From a virus: a stretch of DNA of 21,026 nucleotides. The DNA is taken from positions 1 through 21,026 of the IMG/VR virus record IMGVR_UViG_3300024262_000308; one strand, written 5' to 3'. Positions 3-15,336 of the stretch are shown here, in pieces. The position numbers and the translations under genes are program-made. Position 1 is the stretch's first letter; each line of letters starts with the position of its first letter. The notes under the pieces are model-generated. The model worked only from the letters and a program-made list of their open reading frames with translations, was not told the origin of the DNA and made no database searches.

Positions 3-2441
3 ATTTATGCAAATGCTGTATTATATGATAATTCGACTTATACTTCATTGGGTAATGTCGATGAAGCACTTGAAAAGATTTTTAACGAAAAATTTATAAC
101 ACCTACATTTGATACAACAGTTACAATTAATTATGCATTATTAGATGGAACACTTTTACAATTAGATGGTCATTCTACTAGTAAATGGATAAGTTGGAAT
201 GGAAGCACATTAGGATTAGGGAGTAATGGTGATAGTAATTCGATATTAAAAGTTGGACCAAAAACAACAACAGGTGCAGCTTTAACAAGTACACTAGATT
301 TACATTGGTTAACTGGTCCAGGTGTTGAAACATTAAGGTGGAAAACATATTCATCGAACACAGATGGTTATATTCAAGGATATACAGATGACGGTGGAAC
401 AATAAACACTAAAATATCAGCAGTGGGTGATAGTTATTTTAATGTTGGTGACTTTGGTATTGGAACTATACCTAGTGGTTCTTTTAAATTAGAAGTTGAT
501 GGTGCAATTGGTTCTAGTGGTATAATACAAGCTGAAGAAATATTTAAATCATCTGATAATTCTCTTTATTTGGGTACAGGTGCAGTTGGTACAGTATATA
601 TAAGACCAAATGTATATAATTCATCTACTTATGAAAGTATATTTTCAACATCATTAGCTACAATTGGTACACCAATGACTGTAGAAGGATTAATTAGTGG
701 TAGTACTATATCAATATCGGGTAATTTAAATGCAGGTGATACGACAATAACTGGTACTTTAGGTGCAGGGAATACTACAATTACTGGTACTTTAGGTATA
801 ACATCTACGACATTATTTACAGGTGTAGCAAGTTACACATCAATTGTACCTATTACCACTTATTCTGCTATTACACACAGAGAATATGTAGATACTGAAA
901 TAGCATTACATGCTGTAGGTCATTGGGCATCAGGTACAACATTTACACCGACAGATAAGGATGTTATAGTTTATAATTCTTTAGCAACATATTATGTAGG
1001 TATAAATAAACAAAACCCAACATATAATTTAGATGTAGTTGGTAATGCTCTAATATCTTCAACATTAGATGTTGGTGGTACATTAAATGCTAATAGTGAT
1101 ATATTCATTGGTGGAAGTAGTAATAGTAGAATATCTCATAATGGAACAGTACTCTTTATTGATAATGATGTTAATGGGGGTGAAATATATCTTAGAGCTA
1201 ACGATATAGGTGGAGTTGATCGAATGATGTTTCAAGGTAATCCTGATGGTTCAGCATATTTATATTATAATGGTTCAGCAAAATTTCTAACTACATCGGC
1301 TGGTATACAGGTTGCGGGTGCAGCAGATATAAATGGATCAATTGATGTTAGTGCAGGTGTTAATTTAGGTTCTGCTGCTACAAATGAAGTAGTGTTAAGA
1401 GGATCAACTGTTACAATAGCAAATTACGGTACAGTTGATTCTATAAATTTAATGTTTGCTGGTGCATCTGCTTTTGGGAATCAAGTAATAGCTATACAAG
1501 ATCATGATGTACCAAGAAAATTAACATTAAGAGGTCAAACTAATGATTCTACTTATGGTACTACTTACTATGGTGGTGATTTAGATATAATAGGTGGTGC
1601 AGGTAGTACAAGACTTATATCTAGTTATGGTGATGGTGCAAGAGGAGGTGTTGTTACTGTTGAAGGTGGTCGAGGGGGTGCTGGAAATAACCCGAGTGGT
1701 GGTAATGGTGGTGCTGGTGGTGAGACTATAATTAACGGTGGGAGAGCTGGAAACGGATTAATAAGTGATGGTGGATGGGGTGGAGCTCTACGATTAAACG
1801 GTGGAATCGGTGGTAACGGTGGAAGTGGATCAGGTGATAATGGTGGTGATGGTGGAAATGTTTATATTAATGCAGGAGCTGGTGGTACAGGAGCAGTCGC
1901 GGGGAGTGATGGTGATATTCATATAGGAGCATCAACTACAAATGCAATAACAGCAAGAGGTAATGAAATTACGACTTGTTTATATGCTGAAAAAACATTG
2001 ACACGTGCGATGACTATAAATTATGCGGAAGTTAATATATTTACAATTAGTATGACACATCTTGAATATTTGAGAAATTATAGTAACAAAGTATATAGAC
2101 TTAAATTTTGGTTGCATTACAGTACAAATGCCACTCCCGATTCTGTTAAAGTAACTATTAGAAAAGGAACGGATTATATTGGAGCTAGTGATATAACTAT
2201 GTCTAATGGTGATTTATCTTTATGGGAATTCGAATTTGGTGCTACATCTTCAACAATATCAATATGTCAAGCTTATGCTAAATCCAGTACAGATGAAGAT
2301 ATATATGAAATTTTTGGTGGTTACGGACATGGTACAAGTGCTAATATTTCTGTTTATGTTGAAGCTGGTTATGTAGGAACTGATACTTTGGTAGCCACAA
2401 TAACGAATATAACATTAGAACAAATTGAAACAGTAGCATAA
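3..2441 (+). CDS. Large tail-fibre / receptor-binding protein, N-terminus outside the window
   Basis: The frame is open to the left edge. Codons before the TTG at 48 translate as IYANAVLYDNSTYTSL and run into a stretch typical of phage fibres (YTSLGNVDEALEKI), so 48 is not the real start. About 813 residues are visible. They hold repeated beta modules of the type FGIGTxPxxxxKLEVDGAIG and YVGINKQNPTYNLDVVGNA, common in fibres and surface proteins of Bacteroidota and their phages. Two near-identical 33-base units (about 736-801) encode TTITGTLGAG-like strands. A glycine-rich domain lies at 1570-1925, followed by a C-terminal region of about 150 residues rich in beta-strand-like sequence. No S74 endosialidase-chaperone motif is visible at the C-terminus. 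The inferred role is an elongated trimeric fibre with a distal adhesin. Confidence in a fibre/structural role is high; the receptor is unknown. Confidence 0.8.
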   Translation: MYANAVLYDNSTYTSLGNVDEALEKIFNEKFITPTFDTTVTINYALLDGTLLQLDGHSTSKWISWNGSTLGLGSNGDSNSILKVGPKTTTGAALTSTLDLHWLTGPGVETLRWKTYSSNTDGYIQGYTDDGGTINTKISAVGDSYFNVGDFGIGTIPSGSFKLEVDGAIGSSGIIQAEEIFKSSDNSLYLGTGAVGTVYIRPNVYNSSTYESIFSTSLATIGTPMTVEGLISGSTISISGNLNAGDTTITGTLGAGNTTITGTLGITSTTLFTGVASYTSIVPITTYSAITHREYVDTEIALHAVGHWASGTTFTPTDKDVIVYNSLATYYVGINKQNPTYNLDVVGNALISSTLDVGGTLNANSDIFIGGSSNSRISHNGTVLFIDNDVNGGEIYLRANDIGGVDRMMFQGNPDGSAYLYYNGSAKFLTTSAGIQVAGAADINGSIDVSAGVNLGSAATNEVVLRGSTVTIANYGTVDSINLMFAGASAFGNQVIAIQDHDVPRKLTLRGQTNDSTYGTTYYGGDLDIIGGAGSTRLISSYGDGARGGVVTVEGGRGGAGNNPSGGNGGAGGETIINGGRAGNGLISDGGWGGALRLNGGIGGNGGSGSGDNGGDGGNVYINAGAGGTGAVAGSDGDIHIGASTTNAITARGNEITTCLYAEKTLTRAMTINYAEVNIFTISMTHLEYLRNYSNKVYRLKFWLHYSTNATPDSVKVTIRKGTDYIGASDITMSNGDLSLWEFEFGATSSTISICQAYAKSSTDEDIYEIFGGYGHGTSANISVYVEAGYVGTDTLVATITNITLEQIETVA
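1570..1925 (+). repeat. Glycine-rich alternating strand/GG-run domain in the tail fibre
   Basis: About 118 residues are roughly 40 percent glycine. Short hydrophobic strands (VVTVEGG, ETIINGG, ALRLNGG, NVYINAG, DIHIGAS) alternate with GGxGG runs at a spacing of about 20-24 residues. This looks like a glycine-rich solenoid. Packed polyglycine-II helices, as in the gp38 adhesins of some T4-like phages, are an alternative. The fold is inferred. Confidence 0.7.
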
Positions 2442-2468: not shown

Positions 2469-3716
2469 ATGGGCGACAATATTATAACCCTTGATATAAG
2501 TAGTGTTGATTTTAATAAAGAGAAATTCAAAATGGTCGGTGGATTAAATCTAGATACTGTAAAGATAAAGTATAATTGGTTATTTAATGCACAGATGGAA
2601 GATGCTATTATAGGTGAAGATGAAAATGGTCTTGTTTGGTTTTCAGGAACTTGGGTATGTGGAACTTGGGAAGGAGGAACTTGGTACTCAGGTGAATTCT
2701 TAAACGGAAGATGGAAAGCAGGTGATATGTACAGTTATGATATTGATATGCGTTCATCACTATTAGGAATTTTAACAATAAATAGACAAGACATTACTAA
2801 AACAAGATTTAAAGCTGGTGAATTCGAAGGTGGAACATTTCATTACGGGATATTTGGACAAATCAAAAACGAAGATGACTTAGATATACCATATGAAATA
2901 GACAAAGAATGGATTATAAGTAACATAGAAGATTATGAAATTAGTGGTGAAACATTTGTTTATCAAGCTGTAACAGATTCAACAGTAACAGGTATAACTG
3001 GATATTGTACAAGTGGAGCATCAATATACGAAACCACAGGTACTACTTGTCCAACAGGATTCACATACACAACAGGTATAACACAAGAAATCGTAACAGG
3101 GTTAACTTGGTTCACATTAAGAACTGCTACTTTTGAAGGTGGTGTTTTTAATGGTGGATTAATAAATACAGCTTTCTTTAAAGACGGAAATTTCTATAAT
3201 GATTTTGCAAACAATATTATATGGTATAATGGGAATTGGTATAGTGGGGATTTCTTAATAGGTGATTGGTACAATGGATTCTTTTTAGGGGGTGATTTTT
3301 CTAATGGTAATTGGTATAATGGTACATTATCAACTAATGAAGATACATCATCAACAAGATTTGGATTAAATTATAAAGGAAGTGGAGCTACTTGGTATGA
3401 CGGTACGTTTTCAAATGGACAATTTCATTCTGGATTAAATGTAGTGGATGGTGTTACTAAACCATCATTAGATCATAGCTTATCCAAATGGTATGGTGGT
3501 ACATTTACAAACGGTGAATGGTTTGGTGGGTGTTTCTATAGTGGTAATTGGTTAACAGGTAGATTTTATTCGGGTATAATATATGACATCATATGGAAAA
3601 GAGGACATATTACTGATTGTATTTGGAAAAATGGACAGTTTCTTGATGGTACTATTAGTGGTGGTATCTTTGAAAACATGGATGTAACTAATGTTAGTTT
3701 TGGTTATGATATTTAA
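2469..3716 (+). CDS. Structural protein of aromatic/glycine pentapeptide repeats
   Basis: This 415-residue protein is built from five-residue steps of the form (W/F)-x-x-G-x, for example GTWVCGTWEGGTWYSGEF and NGNWYSGDFLIGDWYNG. Repeat blocks lie at about residues 56-87, 114-130, 221-286, 306-325 and 341-403. A Thr/Cys-rich, non-repetitive insert lies at about 140-215. The 5-residue periodicity with an inward-facing large residue resembles the pentapeptide-repeat right-handed quadrilateral helix, but with Trp/Phe instead of Leu/Phe at the core; MORN-like beta-hairpins are an alternative. There is no signal peptide. It lies 27 bases behind the fibre gene on the same strand and ahead of a small possible virion protein, so a tail-fibre accessory or adhesin role is likely. 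No enzymatic motif is seen. The exact function is unknown. Confidence 0.7.
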   Translation: MGDNIITLDISSVDFNKEKFKMVGGLNLDTVKIKYNWLFNAQMEDAIIGEDENGLVWFSGTWVCGTWEGGTWYSGEFLNGRWKAGDMYSYDIDMRSSLLGILTINRQDITKTRFKAGEFEGGTFHYGIFGQIKNEDDLDIPYEIDKEWIISNIEDYEISGETFVYQAVTDSTVTGITGYCTSGASIYETTGTTCPTGFTYTTGITQEIVTGLTWFTLRTATFEGGVFNGGLINTAFFKDGNFYNDFANNIIWYNGNWYSGDFLIGDWYNGFFLGGDFSNGNWYNGTLSTNEDTSSTRFGLNYKGSGATWYDGTFSNGQFHSGLNVVDGVTKPSLDHSLSKWYGGTFTNGEWFGGCFYSGNWLTGRFYSGIIYDIIWKRGHITDCIWKNGQFLDGTISGGIFENMDVTNVSFGYDI

Positions 3717-3742: not shown

Positions 3743-4159
3743 ATGCAGATTAGAAATTTTTCAACTTATTTAAACGAAGCACTTGATATGACTGAAATGG
3801 AAGAACAAGTAGGTGATTCATTCCCTGAATTAAAAATGGATTTATTAGTTTTAATAAATGATACACTTGAAACAGCAGCTAGTGAAGAAGTTAAAAAGGA
3901 AGATTTAAATACTTTTTTTACAGATTATATTACAACAGGTAAAGATGCTGATATGATAGATGAACTAATCGAAGATAATGATATTTTTAATTTTTATTTA
4001 AAACATCAATCAGATTTTGACGAATTATTAAATGATACCGGGTATATGAATCAAACACCACAACAAAATAATGTGTTTAGTTTATATGATGTTACTATTG
4101 ATGGTACGAAACAAGGTATATGGAATTTGATGGAAATTATGCAAAACGATCTTTTTTAA
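3743..4159 (+). CDS. Small possible virion-internal protein with a capsid-targeting-like N-terminus
   Basis: This 138-residue acidic, probably mostly helical protein has no family I recognise. Its first residues, MQIRNFSTYLNEA, match the pattern of T4 internal-protein capsid-targeting peptides: M, basic/polar residues, F, two residues, aromatic, I/L-x-E, A. In T4 the prohead protease cuts after such I/L-x-E sites; here that would be after Glu12. The gene at 18229-19518 starts in the same way. The C-terminal half is less charged and ends NLMEIMQNDLF. It is the last gene of the left + strand block, behind an exact TATAAATA element. It meets the next gene tail to tail, with stop codons overlapping by 4 bases and no terminator hairpin visible. 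The coding call is firm; the capsid role is inference. Confidence 0.65.
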   Translation: MQIRNFSTYLNEALDMTEMEEQVGDSFPELKMDLLVLINDTLETAASEEVKKEDLNTFFTDYITTGKDADMIDELIEDNDIFNFYLKHQSDFDELLNDTGYMNQTPQQNNVFSLYDVTIDGTKQGIWNLMEIMQNDLF

Positions 4160-4809
4160 TCTAAATAAACCCCATAATTAGGATTCTTCATAAGTTTAAG
4201 ATTTCTATTATTACTACCATCTCTTTCACTTACAACTTCTGATTCAAGAATATCTTTTCTATTTCTTCTATCAATAGAATATTTATTTTTATTAGATATA
4301 TTCTTTTTATTTTTATTTGCTTGACTATAAACATCTGTAACTTTTCCGTCACCTATATTAATATCTATTGTCGAATTATTATTTAATAAACTTTTATTAT
4401 ATTCGGATTGTGATTCTTCGATCAAAGCTTTTGTATTTAATTCATTAAGTCCAGCATCTATATCACTTTGAGATAAATTATTAGCATCTAAACCTTTATC
4501 TATTTTAGCTTGTATAAAGTTTGTTAATGCTTCCGCTATTTTAGCAAGAATAATAGCAACAACCGCAGCTAATAAACCTTTAAGTAAATTACCTAATAAT
4601 TTAGATAAATCAATAATCCAATACCCCAAACCAAACGGTTTAGGAATTTTAATAATCAATTTAGGTTTTGCTTCAGAAACTTCTTCATTATTCGTATTTG
4701 TATCTTCTTGTATTTCTTTTTTAGTTTCTTTGGAAACTTTTTCAGAATTTTCAAGATTAACACTTTCAACTGAACTTAAATCTGTTTCTTGGTTTTTTAT
4801 AGTTGCCAT
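4156..4809 (-). CDS. Unknown one-helix membrane-type protein, last gene of the baseplate operon
   Basis: This 217-residue protein has three parts. Residues 1-50 are charged and Ser/Asn/Glu-rich. Residues about 69-94 form a strongly hydrophobic stretch (LLGNLLKGLLAAVVAIILAK) long enough to cross a membrane, preceded by IPKPFGLGYWIIDL. The C-terminal half is Asn/Lys/Ser-rich with low complexity. Its ATG follows the stop of the spike gene with no spacing, so the two are translationally coupled. T4 has PAAR tips and lysozyme at this point of the spike, and neither is seen here. It might be a spike-associated membrane-interacting protein or a holin-like protein. One segment and a long charged tail are unusual for a holin. 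The function is unassigned. Confidence 0.6.
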   Translation of the reverse strand: MATIKNQETDLSSVESVNLENSEKVSKETKKEIQEDTNTNNEEVSEAKPKLIIKIPKPFGLGYWIIDLSKLLGNLLKGLLAAVVAIILAKIAEALTNFIQAKIDKGLDANNLSQSDIDAGLNELNTKALIEESQSEYNKSLLNNNSTIDINIGDGKVTDVYSQANKNKKNISNKNKYSIDRRNRKDILESEVVSERDGSNNRNLKLMKNPNYGVYLD

Positions 4810-5595
4810 TTATTTTGACTTCTTTGTTTTTTTACCTGTTGTATCATTTTCGGGGTATACAAATCCCGTATCATCGTGTTCAATGCCTGAAGTAGATGAA
4901 TCCCTTTGTAGTTTTTCTACTTTATTGTTATCCACTACATACACATTACTTGATACCATTTTACCTACATCCTTTAAGAATTTAGATAAGTGTGCATCAA
5001 TCTGTGGTTTTAATACAGGAGCTCCCATATTTCCTGTTAAATTTACAGGATTTAAGAGTAATTTTACAAATTGCATAAACCAATCTAATAAAAAGTGTTC
5101 ACCTAATATTACTCGTTGGTCTGCATTCTTACTTCCTAATGTTACCTTTTGTGCATTATCTTTAATTTCTAAATTAATACCTTCTTTATCTATTGTTAAT
5201 TTATTTAACAGATAGTCTAATGTGAGCTGTTCATTATCAGAATATATCCTAGTTTGGTGATCAAATAATAATGCTATAAAACCTTTATAATCTTCTTCAC
5301 TTAATGATTCTAATTTATCTTGTAAATTTATATTATACTTTTCAGTTGAAATATAAAAAGGTGAATACATATTACCATTTTCGAATGTAACATTAACGAT
5401 TTTACCCAATGCTGGTATTTCGAATGATTTACCATTCAAATCCGTGTAAGGATGCGACCAAGGGATGTGTTCTAGTGGTATTCTTTCAAATACGGACTGA
5501 ACCCTCACTTTGACTCTACCTAGTCTTTTTGGGTCGTTAATATCTTCGACTATACCAACATATATTTTACCTACATAACCAGTATCAGTAAACAT
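4810..5595 (-). CDS. Baseplate central spike base, gp5-like OB-fold protein
   Basis: This 261-residue protein has an N-terminal region (about residues 5-88) with the hallmarks of the T4 gp5/VgrG OB-fold: GKIYVGIVEDINDPKRLGRVKVRV, a PWSHP motif, an 'IPALGKIVNVTFENGN' strand pair and a YISTEKYN exit. A short run of beta-helix-like strands (LTIDKEGINLEIKDN, KVTLGS, RVILGE) follows at about 130-165. An amphipathic segment (FLLDWFMQFVKLLLNPVNL) and a Lys-rich tail ending KKTKKSK come after it. There is no lysozyme domain like that of T4 gp5, so any cell-wall-cutting activity must be elsewhere. It overlaps the upstream gene by one base (TAATG) and lies in the baseplate operon. The OB-fold/spike call is well supported; the C-terminal part is less clear. 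Confidence 0.8.
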   Translation of the reverse strand: MFTDTGYVGKIYVGIVEDINDPKRLGRVKVRVQSVFERIPLEHIPWSHPYTDLNGKSFEIPALGKIVNVTFENGNMYSPFYISTEKYNINLQDKLESLSEEDYKGFIALLFDHQTRIYSDNEQLTLDYLLNKLTIDKEGINLEIKDNAQKVTLGSKNADQRVILGEHFLLDWFMQFVKLLLNPVNLTGNMGAPVLKPQIDAHLSKFLKDVGKMVSSNVYVVDNNKVEKLQRDSSTSGIEHDDTGFVYPENDTTGKKTKKSK

Positions 5596-8003
5596 TATCT
5601 ATTATCATCTTTTTTATATAAATTACCTTTAGGTTCTTTGTCGTGGTATTCACCGTCTGGATGAACATCACCTTCAGGTTCTTTTGGTTCTACTTCTTCT
5701 ATTCTACCATAAACATTACCAGATGGTTTTTTAACACCGTCTACTAAGTCATCAGCACTATAAACTTCCCCTTTAGGTTCTTTGTCGTGATATTCACCAT
5801 CTTCGTGTAAATCACCATCTATTCCACCTGTAGGGTACTTTTGATTGTATTCACCATCTGGTTGTACATCACCGTCTGGGAATTTTAAATTATATTGTCC
5901 ATCTGGGTGAACATCACCACTTGGATATTTTTCGTTGTATGTTCCTTTTTCTTGTACACTTCCACTTGGTTCTTTTTCGTTATAAGTTCCATCTTCGTGT
6001 ACGTCACCATCTGGATATTTTTCGTTATATGTACCATCTTCGTGTGTATCACCATCTGGGTATTTTTCGTTATATGAACCATCTTCATGTACATCCCCAT
6101 CAGGATACTTTTCATTATAAGTACCATCTTCATGTACATCTCCACCAGGAAATTTAAGATTGTATTGACCATCTTCGTGTAAATCACCATCTGGGTATTT
6201 TTCGTTATATTCACCTTTTGGTTGTACAATACCTTCAGGGTATTTTTCATTATATTCACCATCTTCGTGTAAATCACCTGTAGGTTCTTTTTCATTATAT
6301 GAACCATCTTCGTGTCTACTTTCACCTGATGGTGCTTTTCCTTCTGTAAGTGCATCACCATAAAGATTTGAATTTCTTGGTAACGGTCCAGTATCACCGT
6401 AAAATGCATTTTTAGCTGCATTTTCAGCTTTTTCACCGAATGTATCACCTGCTTCATCCCAATAAATATTAACCCTACTACCTTTTTCAGCATTAGTATC
6501 AATATCAACACTAACATTATTTTTTAAATCATCTACAGCATTATCTAAGAACTTTTCAAATAAGAAACTTACTTTATTAATTGCTTGGAAAGGATCATCA
6601 TAATAAACATTCACTTTAGATAAAGTTATACCATTAAATCCAGGTATATCTAACCCACCTAATAATTTATCACTAACAAATCTTTGTGCTTGACTACTTA
6701 ATACAGTTACTTCTTCTTTCACTTTATTAATTAATACATTTCTTACATCTGAAATTTCATCGGTAAACGAATTCTTTAATTTTTCAGTATATTGTCCTAT
6801 TGGTCCTTTAGTTTTCTTCTTCGAACCCGCAGGTAAATTTTTAGGATAGAGTGTACTAACATTACCTTCTCCATCACTTAATGGATTACTTCTTTCTGCA
6901 TTTGCATCTTTTTCTAATTGTGTCTTTTCTTTTTGTTCATCTAATGAATTATAATCAGTACTAAATCTTTCATAACCTTCACTATCTAAATTAAGTCTTT
7001 CTCTTAAATCAATTGGAATTGCATTATCAATAGCTTGTGCTCCTGTAATTTTACTATAAGATTTATAATTAATAGAAAATGTTAGTGAAGCAGGGGTAGT
7101 TGTAGCACCACCGTCAAAACCAGATACTTTCACATCATTTCCAAAATTTCTTGAATTAAAAAAATCAAATTGACAGTCATGTAATACATATGCAAATTTT
7201 GATATACCTTGATTTACATACTTACCTTCAGTTGTAACCATATCCCTTGCATCTCTAAACATAATAGTAAGATTAAAACGCAATAGGTTATCAGGAATAA
7301 GATATCTATGTGTATCATATGAATATACTAAATTAGAATATAATTCAGACATATATTGTGTTAACATTGTAACATCTTCTGATAAAGTAAATGTTAATAC
7401 ATCTTCCGGATATGTAACTATCTTTTTAAATAATAAATCTAATCCACCAATTGAATTAATATAATGTCTTTTATATCCCGCTTCTTGGTTCAAATCACCA
7501 GGGAATATCTTTTGTACCATATTTACAAATTGTGAATACATTTCAGGTCTTTCGGATAATTCAGGAATTGAATCAGAATAAGAACTAAAAAACCCATTTA
7601 CATTGTTAAATAATGGTGAATCAATATAATCCATATATAAATCAAAAATAATAAACGTTGGGTCCTCTCTACTATCTGAATTATTATAACCAAATATATT
7701 TCTAAAATTATTTACTTGGGTATTTACTTGTTTAGATAATGGTGCTGATTTTTCTTGTGCATAAGCATTATCATTTGTTACTTCACTTGCACGTACAGAT
7801 TCACCGTTAACTTCAGTTAGTCCACCATATCTTTCTGTATATTGTGCATATCCATCAGCATAACCCAATGTTTTCTTAGTTGTAGGTGGATCAGAAGCAG
7901 GAACATTATTATCCACAGGATTACCATTAGCAGCAGTTTGTGCTGCAAGTAATTCTTGCATTTGCTTAGAAGATTGACTTCCTGGTAAATTATCTGCACC
8001 CAT
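5595..8003 (-). CDS. Baseplate tail-tube-fold protein with a 15-residue acidic repeat tail
   Basis: This 802-residue protein starts at ATG 8003 after an A-rich leader. Residues 1-90 are Gln/Ala/Asn-rich and probably flexible. Residues about 100-320 look like a myovirus tail-tube fold: VLTFTLSEDV, then NLLRFNLTIMFRDARDM, YVLHDCQFDFFNSRNFGNDV and LTFSINYKSY, the strand pattern of T4 tube, gp48 and gp54 proteins. Residues about 340-560 include a Lys/Glu-rich linker and a second mixed region (VNVYYDDPFQAINKVSFLFEKFLDNAVDDL). Residues 564-795 are a tandem array of HEDGxYNEKYPDGDV-type units. It lies between the hub and spike genes, so a tube-cap or hub-adaptor role similar to gp48 is inferred. The repeat tail is not a feature I know from T4 proteins. 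Confidence 0.7.
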   Translation of the reverse strand: MGADNLPGSQSSKQMQELLAAQTAANGNPVDNNVPASDPPTTKKTLGYADGYAQYTERYGGLTEVNGESVRASEVTNDNAYAQEKSAPLSKQVNTQVNNFRNIFGYNNSDSREDPTFIIFDLYMDYIDSPLFNNVNGFFSSYSDSIPELSERPEMYSQFVNMVQKIFPGDLNQEAGYKRHYINSIGGLDLLFKKIVTYPEDVLTFTLSEDVTMLTQYMSELYSNLVYSYDTHRYLIPDNLLRFNLTIMFRDARDMVTTEGKYVNQGISKFAYVLHDCQFDFFNSRNFGNDVKVSGFDGGATTTPASLTFSINYKSYSKITGAQAIDNAIPIDLRERLNLDSEGYERFSTDYNSLDEQKEKTQLEKDANAERSNPLSDGEGNVSTLYPKNLPAGSKKKTKGPIGQYTEKLKNSFTDEISDVRNVLINKVKEEVTVLSSQAQRFVSDKLLGGLDIPGFNGITLSKVNVYYDDPFQAINKVSFLFEKFLDNAVDDLKNNVSVDIDTNAEKGSRVNIYWDEAGDTFGEKAENAAKNAFYGDTGPLPRNSNLYGDALTEGKAPSGESRHEDGSYNEKEPTGDLHEDGEYNEKYPEGIVQPKGEYNEKYPDGDLHEDGQYNLKFPGGDVHEDGTYNEKYPDGDVHEDGSYNEKYPDGDTHEDGTYNEKYPDGDVHEDGTYNEKEPSGSVQEKGTYNEKYPSGDVHPDGQYNLKFPDGDVQPDGEYNQKYPTGGIDGDLHEDGEYHDKEPKGEVYSADDLVDGVKKPSGNVYGRIEEVEPKEPEGDVHPDGEYHDKEPKGNLYKKDDNR
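5619..6314 (-). repeat. Tandem 45-base / 15-residue acidic repeats
   Basis: Twelve consecutive units of consensus HEDGxYNEKYPDGDV run from 6314 down to 5763, with one 4-residue insert in unit 11. Two degenerate units and a final HPDGEYHDKEPKGNL unit follow. Each consensus unit carries about five acidic residues against one lysine. Units differ by many synonymous bases, for example cgtgt versus catgt for the same residues, so the array is old and conserved at protein level. Confidence 0.95.
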
Positions 8004-8030: not shown

Positions 8031-9464
8031 TTAATATGTCTTATTAGGATCAAAATCATCATCATTAAAATTAAGTTCCCTTTTAACAAGCGTTACTTCT
8101 TGTTCAAAGCCACTCTTCTTATTAAATGTGTAATTAATAGCAGTAATTAACCAATCACCACTTAATCTTTGGTTTAATTTATCTTCATCAGATATGATAC
8201 CTGCTTTTTCGTCAACAGATTTTTGATCAAGCTTTTGTGTTTTATCACCTTGGAGATCAGCATTATCCATTTGGTTAGTCTTATAAAAATCAACTTTAAG
8301 CTTTTGAAATCTGTATAAATTGAAATTAGCTTTATTTATTGTAATCTTTAATTTTACTTTTTGTAAAAATTTTAAATTATTTTCATTATGTTTTGCTGAA
8401 TATAAATAATACTTATGTACATTATCTGTATCTGTTTTACCCATGTATTCACCATCAGCAGAATATTTTTGCATTTCTGATACTTCACCGATCCCACCTT
8501 TCATAATAATACTATTATTATCTTTCCCTGGTGTAGAAATACTATCTAATATAAGTTTATATAATGTGTTTCCATCAGTATCGTAATATGATAAATAATA
8601 TAAATAACCTATTTCTAAATTAATAGCTGTCGATCTATTTATCAAATCATATTTATCAATATAAGTATTGGTTGACATTACATCCGGATGATTCATTAAA
8701 ATCAACTCCTTTGTTTGTTCTTCTTCGTTTGGTGTATTAAAAAAATAATTATCACTTGAAACTGCAGTTTGACCATCAATATCTTCGGAAAGTGCTGTTT
8801 CTATATCAACATAATTCAAATTATAATAAAAATCTACATAAGCAAACATAAAAGATTCTTGTGACTTATAAGAATGTTTTATAATATTTTGAATATATTC
8901 TAAATATTGATCTGCTGGATTTATCCATACCATACTATCATCTGTACTGTCAATATTAGATGCAAAACCAAGTTCAGCTTCTTTAGCTAATGTTTTTAAT
9001 ACATTATAACTAGTATCTTTATGTGAAGTAAAAAATGTTTGATATAAATAACTAACATCTAAAATTCCAGATAAACCAAAAATAACATCATAATTATCAC
9101 CTGGTCTAGATTTAATAGGATTGATATCAGTTATTTTGAAATCCATTCTAATTGGCATTAATATATCACTATCAGCTTGAATAAAAACTTTAAGAATTGT
9201 ATCATCAATAGGAAACAATGGATCAATCAATTGTCCTGATGTATCCCTAAATTGAATATATATTCTAGGTAGAAATTGGTCATTAAATAACTGAAGCATA
9301 ATCGTTTGATCCGCTTCTATAGCTAATTTACCAATTTCGATATAAGGTGTGCGACCAATATCTTTTGAAAATTCTTCAATTTTTGGGTCTTTATTACCTT
9401 TTTGTACTAATTGGAAATCAATTTCTTTTAATTTAATACTTGGTCTATCTATTACTGTTATCAT
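8031..9464 (-). CDS. Baseplate hub protein, gp27-like
   Basis: This 477-residue protein lies between the LysM-like gene and the tube-fold gene, one base behind the former (TAATATG), so the two are coupled. Residues about 50-150 read as a beta domain (IMLQLFNDQFLPRIYIQFRD, then TDINPIKSRPGDNYDVIFGLSG). Residues about 150-220 carry a pattern I associate with T4-type hub proteins: a stretch on unravelling of an LAKEAELGFASN helix, WINPADQYLEYIQNI, and a SFMFAYVDFYYNLNYVD strand. The C-terminal region ends in LSGDWLITAINYTFNKKSGFEQEVTLVKREL, the usual 'final strand pair' of gp27/gpD-type hubs. The hub sits above the spike and forms the ring that joins spike to tube. The family call rests on pattern and context, without an alignment. 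Confidence 0.7.
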   Translation of the reverse strand: MITVIDRPSIKLKEIDFQLVQKGNKDPKIEEFSKDIGRTPYIEIGKLAIEADQTIMLQLFNDQFLPRIYIQFRDTSGQLIDPLFPIDDTILKVFIQADSDILMPIRMDFKITDINPIKSRPGDNYDVIFGLSGILDVSYLYQTFFTSHKDTSYNVLKTLAKEAELGFASNIDSTDDSMVWINPADQYLEYIQNIIKHSYKSQESFMFAYVDFYYNLNYVDIETALSEDIDGQTAVSSDNYFFNTPNEEEQTKELILMNHPDVMSTNTYIDKYDLINRSTAINLEIGYLYYLSYYDTDGNTLYKLILDSISTPGKDNNSIIMKGGIGEVSEMQKYSADGEYMGKTDTDNVHKYYLYSAKHNENNLKFLQKVKLKITINKANFNLYRFQKLKVDFYKTNQMDNADLQGDKTQKLDQKSVDEKAGIISDEDKLNQRLSGDWLITAINYTFNKKSGFEQEVTLVKRELNFNDDDFDPNKTY

Positions 9465-9465
9465 A

Positions 9466-9936
9466 TTACTTGAATTTATTCATAATTGTAATCTTCTTCT
9501 TGTTATAATTTATATCAATTGCTTTTAGATTACCTGGTTTAATTGAGGGTGGTAATGATGCATTTGGGTCTTGTCTAGAAGATTTACTTTTATTCACATT
9601 TAATATCTTTTTCTTAGTTTCTTCATTTGTTTCTACATCCCTTTTATATAAAACACCCAATTCATTAGATGTATAAGCATAATATATTTCATCACCTGTT
9701 TTAACAGAAAAAGGATTAATGATACCATTTTGTGTCATCATTTCTTCCATAAATTTTGTATTACCATATATATGTTTACATACTAAATCTAATCTACTAT
9801 CATATTCTTCTGGAACTATATATTTACTATAGATAGCTTCAATATCATTTACCATAGTTTTTTCGAAGAAATCATATAGTACGTAACCATCTTTGGATAC
9901 TTTTTGGTTTGTGTTATTATATGTGTAAAATTCCAT
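9466..9936 (-). CDS. LysM-like baseplate protein, gp53-like
   Basis: This 156-residue protein begins MEFYTYNNTNQKVSKDGYVLYDFFEK. Residues about 44-88 resemble a LysM module: EYDSRLDLVCKHIYGNTKF, then a helix, then INPFSVKTGDEIYYA, the usual 'xVKxGDxIxxP' ending. In contractile-tail baseplates a LysM protein of this size (T4 gp53 is about 200 residues) attaches wedges around the hub and is commonly encoded just before the hub gene, as here. The tail of about 60 residues is Lys/Asn/Ser-rich. Spacing to the upstream gene is two bases. It is probably structural rather than a cell-wall hydrolase. Confidence 0.7.
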   Translation of the reverse strand: MEFYTYNNTNQKVSKDGYVLYDFFEKTMVNDIEAIYSKYIVPEEYDSRLDLVCKHIYGNTKFMEEMMTQNGIINPFSVKTGDEIYYAYTSNELGVLYKRDVETNEETKKKILNVNKSKSSRQDPNASLPPSIKPGNLKAIDINYNKKKITIMNKFK

Positions 9937-11458: not shown

Positions 11459-11860
11459 TTAGTAACTTTTGAGTATTTGGGAAGCATCGAATATATTCAT
11501 ATTTTCCAATATAGATTGGTTAATATAATCGTTATCTTTAAACTCATCATAAAAAATTAGAATGTTAAAATTCATATTATTAGATGAAAGTATTTTCTTT
11601 ATTTTAAACACTTCTTCTATATCAAAGTCTTTATTACTAAAATTAGGTATATAATAGACATCTTTGTTCTTGTCCATTGAATGCTTAATACGTGTATAAA
11701 TAATTAAATTAAAATATTCTCTATAAGTTTCATAGTCATCTACTTCATAATCATCAAGTAGAAATTTTATATCTATAATAACTTTATTCTTTATCTTATT
11801 GACTTTTATATACTTATCAAATCTTTTTCTATTTTTGGTGAAAACGAGGTAAAAATCCAT
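11459..11860 (-). CDS. Hypothetical protein upstream of the baseplate operon
   Basis: This 133-residue protein is rich in Lys, Asp, Asn, Ile and Tyr and has no family I recognise. Its alternating strands and helices (KVIIDIKFLLDDYE; DVYYIPNFSN; FNILIFYDEF) suggest an alpha/beta fold, loosely like a Rossmann or P-loop-kinase core. There is no Walker A motif or catalytic signature. It is transcribed away from the recombinase gene across a 167-base divergent gap, and toward the baseplate operon, from which a late-type promoter separates it. It may be an early or middle gene. The coding call rests on the long open frame, codon use like its neighbours, a TAA stop and gap-filling position. Confidence 0.6.
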   Translation of the reverse strand: MDFYLVFTKNRKRFDKYIKVNKIKNKVIIDIKFLLDDYEVDDYETYREYFNLIIYTRIKHSMDKNKDVYYIPNFSNKDFDIEEVFKIKKILSSNNMNFNILIFYDEFKDNDYINQSILENMNIFDASQILKSY

Positions 11861-14613: not shown

Positions 14614-15336
14614 ATGTCAAAAGATAAAAATTATATAGATTTTGATGATAAAAAGAAAAACGAGAAATTTAATGTGGATGAAATAGAAGATATTGAAATA
14701 ATTGAAGATGATGAAATATCAGAAGATGATGAAATATCAGAAGAAGATTATGATATCGAAGATGATAATTTTGATGGTGAATCTGATGAATCGGAAGAAG
14801 ATTACGACAATTATATCGAAAACACACCCACAAAAGAAGAAAAGTTTGATTTATTATATCATTTAAATACAAACAAACACAGACAAGAAGGAAAACACAG
14901 GTTAAAAAGAGATACTATTTTCAAAGGTAAACTAGATAAAAAACCAGATGAAGATGGATACGGATTAGAACAAGATGATTATGGCGATATATCAACTTTT
15001 TTCGATTATGAATCTGAACAATATTCTAATAGTCTCGACCAAAACAATTTAACAAAAGATGTTTATGAAGTTCTAAATGATAAAACAGACTTAGACTTTA
15101 AACAAAATAGGAGAAAACCTAATAAAGAAACCTTTAATAATTATTACAACCTTTTATTAAAAGAATTAGGATTTAGATACACTAAATCTGAAATTTTTGT
15201 TGAATTGTCGTATTATTTTACTGATAATATATTCAATATGTTTAAATTATTAGACAAAAGACCTGCTACTATTATAATAAAGGAACTAACCCAAAGAGGT
15301 TATTTGAAAGATTTAGATGGGATAAACTTTCTATAA
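14614..15336 (+). CDS. Unknown acidic protein between helicase and ribonucleotide reductase
   Basis: This 240-residue protein has two parts. Residues about 15-75 are almost wholly acidic (DEIEDIEIIEDDEISEDDEISEEDYDI, in short repeats) and surely disordered. Residues about 165-240 form a compact, probably helical domain (FNNYYNLLLKELGFRYTKSEIFVEL, then FNMFKLLDKRPATIIIKELTQRGYL). I do not recognise the family. Its position directly behind the helicase, with spacings of 14 and 20 bases, suggests a replication accessory role such as helicase loader or single-strand-binding partner. An acidic arm that contacts basic partners is common in such proteins. No catalytic motif is visible, so the role is inferred only from context. 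Confidence 0.65.
   Translation: MSKDKNYIDFDDKKKNEKFNVDEIEDIEIIEDDEISEDDEISEEDYDIEDDNFDGESDESEEDYDNYIENTPTKEEKFDLLYHLNTNKHRQEGKHRLKRDTIFKGKLDKKPDEDGYGLEQDDYGDISTFFDYESEQYSNSLDQNNLTKDVYEVLNDKTDLDFKQNRRKPNKETFNNYYNLLLKELGFRYTKSEIFVELSYYFTDNIFNMFKLLDKRPATIIIKELTQRGYLKDLDGINFL

Follow-up and report, generated by a model that had tools for sequence, protein, structure and literature searches.

The junction between the baseplate and the tail tube of phage T4 holds six copies of gp54 (PMC3004832), a protein of 320 residues that carries no repeat arm. At the opposite end of a contractile tail, the ring-forming tail terminator gp5 of XM1 docks its C-terminal tail, which is single, short and free of repeats, on a neighbouring subunit by beta-sheet augmentation (PMC10457771). 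In-frame repeats that create disordered regions in the proteins of giant genetic elements, and that resemble short linear motifs, have been described for the archaeal Borg elements, where the repeats are perfect and recently formed (PMC9879509). The viral protein analysed here has features in common with all three, namely a tube-fold domain (as gp54), a C-terminal tail on what is most likely a ring protein (as XM1 gp5) and a long disordered in-frame repeat (as the Borg proteins). Unlike the Borg repeats, its units are old and strongly diverged at synonymous sites; unlike in T4, its gene directly precedes the spike gene instead of following gp48. The original remark that no such tail is known in T4 gp48 or gp54 holds for gp54.

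The window, i.e. the whole stretch of DNA that was analysed, is an entire IMG/VR virus record of 21,026 bases. The features on which the argument rests are the following:

9466-9936, minus strand: small baseplate wedge-type protein (phrog_7145 'baseplate wedge subunit', E 1.9e-6)
8031-9464, minus strand: protein 5' of the array gene, a hub by position only (phrog_35886, function unknown, E 1e-19)
5595-8003, minus strand: array gene, 802 aa, encoding a disordered N-terminus, a tube-fold domain, a helical linker and a repeat arm (open reading frame, AF2 model)
7029-7667, minus strand: tube-fold domain, residues 113-325 (AF2 pLDDT, structure matches, conservation in 73 loci)
6516-6983, minus strand: predicted helices linking domain and arm, residues 341-371, 402-447 and 471-496 (AF2, low to medium confidence)
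6603-6611, minus strand: NVY motif, residues 465-467, in a position resembling that of the single PxNVY of short relatives
5820-6314, minus strand: eleven units in strict 15-residue register, residues 564-728 (lag identity, Tandem Repeats Finder)
5763-5807, minus strand: twelfth unit HEDGEYHDKEPKGEV, separated from the eleven by a 4-residue insert (DGDL), residues 733-747
5619-5663, minus strand: lone thirteenth unit HPDGEYHDKEPKGNL, residues 781-795, leading into the terminal GNLYK
4810-5595, minus strand: spike gene with an OB domain (Phage_base_V, E 1.3e-9; phrog_430, E 3e-13)

The array gene had been placed between hub and spike. The spike side of that placement stands, and the two genes even share one base (5595); a search of the spike for an enzyme domain returned the OB domain only. 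The hub side is positional: the protein encoded at 8031-9464 matched nothing in a profile comparison with solved structures and showed no similarity to T4 gp27. A gp48 identity for the 484-aa protein of the window was likewise rejected, the comparison giving no match. Between this 484-aa protein and a RecA/UvsX-like gene lies a conserved gene for a protein of 131-133 aa and unknown function (11459-11860, minus strand; L003:3824-4219 and L018:1504-1902 in the related loci, which are referred to by L-numbers) that carries the motif KNRKxFDKYxKxNxxxNKxIIDIK.

The AF2 model of the array protein, built from a 40-sequence alignment, has a pLDDT of mostly 81-97 over residues 121-320, with 60-65 around 251-270. 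The best solved Foldseek match to the domain model is 9f4a_BQ (E 3e-4), by sequence a homologue of T4 gp54, which also ranks first in VIA-align (Z 10.3), followed by a T4 baseplate chain (9.9), the tubes of phi-kp24 (9.4) and phiKZ (9.2) and the T4 tail tube (7.9). Among the matches listed, with Z from 10.3 to 5.3 over residues ~112-325, almost all are tube, baseplate-tube or Hcp proteins. The model thereby supports the predicted tube fold and assigns the domain to the tail-tube superfamily (gp19/gp48/gp54/Hcp/eCIS tube). Within it gp54 appears to be the nearest structural relative, though not uniquely, as the phi-kp24 and phiKZ tubes lie within ~1 Z; a profile comparison of the array protein with T4 gp54 detected no similarity at the sequence level. 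Most likely we are dealing with a subunit of the T4 gp54 type, which initiates the tube or joins it to the baseplate and sits in a ring beside hub and spike.

Homologues of the domain, including its invariant columns, were found by a profile scan in 73 IMG/VR loci, which are metagenomic (one of them, L016, is incomplete). By tblastn, the domain is also encoded by a 735-kb phage (E 3e-34) and by records of 636, 634 and 642 kb, and it is further present in gp255 of Sphingomonas phage PAU, in the Tenacibaculum phages pT24 (BPT24_163) and PTm1, in the Lak phages and in Flavobacterium phage MaF61 (ORF80). In nearly all complete family loci the next gene downstream begins like an OB-fold spike. The window protein is a member of this family of PAU gp255 and huge-phage homologues, for which every annotated record examined gives no function, the entries being hypothetical or unannotated; among the papers listed in our literature searches, none was recognised as showing by proteomics that the PAU or Tenacibaculum homologues are part of the virion. 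Most family members are without arrays, and only L009, L010 and L012 share the repeat of the window.

That repeat is real, and its location at residues 564-795 (6314-5619) agrees with what had been predicted. Over its best 60 residues the lag-15 identity is 0.83, whereas 50 shuffles gave no more than 0.27 at any lag, and Tandem Repeats Finder reports periods of 45, 90 and 135 bp at 5853-6315. The twelve consecutive units that had been counted become, in our count by eye, eleven in strict register, a twelfth after the insert and an isolated thirteenth, with KPSGNVYG in the linker between the last two. Between units, 71% of the bases and 67% of the residues are identical, with pS 0.56, pN 0.23 and a ratio of 0.41, and this heavy synonymous variation bears out the earlier claim of selection on the peptide. 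None of the library families covers the repeat: matches in Pfam and PHROGs are at chance level, and NCBIfam offers only collagen-like adhesins far below their cut-offs (NF046116, 29.2 bits vs 500; NF038329, 22.5 vs 325), matches that, like those to collagen-like tail fibres, are compositional. A scan of 84,980 cellular species genomes found no relative, and a search of IMG/VR only the three kindred contigs.

In the full model the tail has a pLDDT of 30-64, and of 31 when modelled alone as a monomer, which predicts that the C-terminal 239 residues form an intrinsically disordered arm. The folded stalk that had been envisaged, or a repeat of the triple beta-spiral type, finds no support in this monomer model, although the arm may still fold as an oligomer. 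Elsewhere in the window, a 240-aa protein (14614-15336, plus strand) has a strongly acidic N-terminus of low complexity, EIIEDDEISEDDEISEEDYDIEDD, and an 18-bp tandem repeat is present there in the DNA.

The YNEKYPxG array is limited to one clade of four loci (window, L009, L010 and L012; support 100/98). All four members have retained it, with varying length. P1, G3, G9, Y11, N12 and K14 of the unit are invariant or nearly so in the four proteins, Y/F15 is kept and the cores are 35-47% identical, whereas positions 4-8 vary (DVHED, DVHID, DLQDD, TREEK). Positional orthology unit by unit between the window and L009 was rejected, with p 0.03 only. In L012 the arm ends in ENVY, and in the other three loci in a GN[VIL]Y-type motif.

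Nor is the tail a one-off: at the corresponding position, relatives have arms made of other repeats. The 735-kb phage and its relatives carry an arm of 14-mers (PPVSGTIDTSFTPH) there, the 636-kb phage one of 15-mers (PNEDVNPVKNFKYVN) and L024 one of 36- to 37-mers, and 19-, 22-, 26- and 43-mers occur elsewhere in the family. The homologue of Prevotella phage Lak-A2 (MK250019; L084:7533-11693, 1386 aa with TAG read as Gln) has at least 18 units of type PEFNLDKSDQNYVS plus a second 14-mer array; its two long 14-residue arrays are of the NYVSPEMNLDHNDM and SIANMDMTTLNQNV types. Homology between these arrays was considered and rejected: hhalign found nothing between clades, and in column-permutation tests the window array resembled neither that of the 14-mer clade (p 0.83) nor that of Lak (p 0.63), a p of 0.01 against L004 being one of several comparisons and suggestive only. 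With array classes assigned by eye from periodicity scores, an array must have been gained or lost at least 8 times to fit the well-supported branches of a tree of the domain alone. A repeat arm on the presumed tube-ring protein is, in other words, a recurrent feature, and the repeats differ between clades.

What the arm may do can be judged in part from its charge. The tail of the window is strongly acidic, as had been noted, although the computed net charge is -40 over 229 residues (His excluded) rather than about -45. The figure of about -4 per unit fits only the consensus HEDGTYNEKYPDGDV; ten consecutive units average -2.8. Together with the -75 over 740 residues of the Lak homologue and the likely position of the ring beside the channel, this acidity would suit arms that fill the lumen of the tube or hub until ejection, mimicking the charge of DNA. 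In the same array of the three relatives, however, the charge per unit is only -1.5, -1.6 and -0.5, so that acidity is local and is not what the array conserves, and the region after the domain is even positive in L004 (+6), L056 (+27) and L065 (+29). By our own estimate, the channel would moreover be crowded if it had to take six such arms, each of 239 residues, besides a tape measure. Acidity is therefore unlikely to be the point of the tail, be it as a DNA mimic or as the ion-binding stalk also proposed, and a filler of the lumen comes last among the explanations that we consider.

Nor does the array look like mere slippage in AT-rich phage DNA that lengthened a tolerant, disordered C-terminus, an improbable account to which we give only slightly more credit. 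It would explain why the repeats differ between clades, why they are often gained or lost and why some units are identical in DNA (units 549 and 564 of L009; units 701 and 716 of L004). The latter show that units do get duplicated, and the statement that selection does not act on copy number was accordingly too strong. Against neutral growth speaks the constraint on the units of the window clade (pN/pS 0.40-0.57) in spite of their age (pS 0.35-0.57), as does the retention of the array by every member of this well-supported clade. Taken over both this clade and that of the 14-mers, pN/pS is 0.35-0.57; L004, with 0.92, is alone in its near-neutral look.

A different kind of clue comes from the array-free tails. 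Short relatives have a single PPxNVY and often a single FFYD[IV]RG near the C-terminus. The FFD-type motif, which many relatives have once near the C-terminus, is present in 12, 5 and 7 copies in L024, L034 and L074, respectively; the arrays of these three (L024:5434-8613 for the first) are built round FFD[KIV][MR]G, with single copies in L005 and L051. Likewise, L065 has four copies of KYPAP, and L037 and L072 have one each. The tails contain 79 N[VI][YF] motifs vs 21 in shuffled tails, 73 vs 11 of the FFD type and 6 vs 0 KYPAP; since the motifs were read from the sequences before counting, and homologous single copies were counted repeatedly, the shuffles gauge enrichment and are not an unbiased discovery. 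In two other clades, then, the array appears to be a multiplied short motif. The window unit itself did not pass the corresponding test for an origin from the single PxNVY motif of the family (column-permutation p 0.44, 0.43, 0.92 and 0.09, with scores no higher than those of column-permuted units), so that the argument from amplification is borrowed from the other clades. At the extreme C-terminus, motifs of the N[IV][YF] type recur in L007 (ENVYN), L076-L079 (ENIFD, DNIFD) and PAU gp255 (L082:7770-9011; ENIYGQS), which suggests a docking motif conserved as far as a cultured phage.

As judged from these sequences, the fact that a motif repeated in two other clades is single in relatives favours either a docking arm or a spacer. 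In the latter case the units would bind nothing, and the arm would be a flexible tether from the ring domain to the C-terminal anchors of the NVY type. The predicted disorder, the terminal motifs (window clade, L007, L076-L079 and PAU gp255) and the different array lengths in the four loci are what one would expect of a tether, and the conservation of P, G, Y and N may just as well serve to hold a spacer in soluble, extended form. A near-invariant G-x-Y-N-x-K-[YF]-P-x-G, in the arms of proteins with cores only 35-47% identical, would be needless for a mere spacer, however, and we consider this explanation doubtful and second in rank. Our first choice, held tentatively and at somewhat less than even confidence, is that the tube-junction ring bears a multivalent docking arm. 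In its favour are the predicted disorder, the constraint on the peptide, the recurrence of repeat arms and the arrays of other clades that contain a motif which is single in relatives. Each PxGxxxxxGxYNxK[YF] unit would then act as a single short linear motif and may hold a putative partner, some protein of the tail tip or of the nascent tube, and repetition would raise avidity and reach; if the ring is hexameric, as that of T4 gp54, about 70 motifs would surround the base of the tube. It is from the conserved peptide that we infer binding, and against it stands the fact that many relatives manage array-free.

One candidate for the partner of the arm is the protein encoded 3' of the spike (4156-4809, minus strand). 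Its gene occurs in all four array-bearing loci (L009:8527-9498; L010:8840-9091; L012:9182-10066, the last copy incomplete). The protein has a hydrophobic stretch in the window and L009, a C-terminal motif KYSxD[RK]RNRxD[IV]LxS...NPNYGxY in the window, L009 and (as a variant) L010, and a weak match to LPD14 below the cut-off. Also present in L009 and L010 are counterparts of a 415-aa protein with dense W/F-x-x-G repeats (GTWxxGTWxGGTWYSGxF; window 2469-3716, plus strand), which adjoins a glycine-rich, fibre-like protein (window 3-2441).

The spikes of the four array-bearing loci have an OB domain only, and those of some near relatives carry VanY/M15 (L017 and L018) or, in L011, a weak match to lysozyme. 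Such a difference, and the weak compositional resemblance of the tail to tail fibres and collagen-like adhesins, could point to a brush or adhesion arm on the surface, touching host glycans or the envelope near the tail tip. The resemblance lies far below curated cut-offs, however, and a tie of the array to a short spike (raw counts 7/15 vs 6/41, with the classes assigned by eye as above) was unsupported on independent branches in a test of low power. We regard a surface arm as unlikely; like neutral growth and a lumen filler, it is less likely than the docking arm, which we rank first, and the spacer, which follows.

A broader version of docking may be considered, with more reserve than for the window itself: in huge and Bacteroidota-type phages the C-terminal arms of the junction ring may serve as an interchangeable scaffold for multivalent docking, in which each lineage amplifies its own motif for its own partner at the foot of the tail tube. 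The family is present in phages of 634, 636, 642 and 735 kb and in the Lak megaphages, and it points to a recurrent tail part that T4 lacks, namely a junction ring of the tube from which long repeat arms extend. Through it one could approach the building or loading of giant tails, and ask in a concrete case whether repeat arms act as docking scaffolds in virions.
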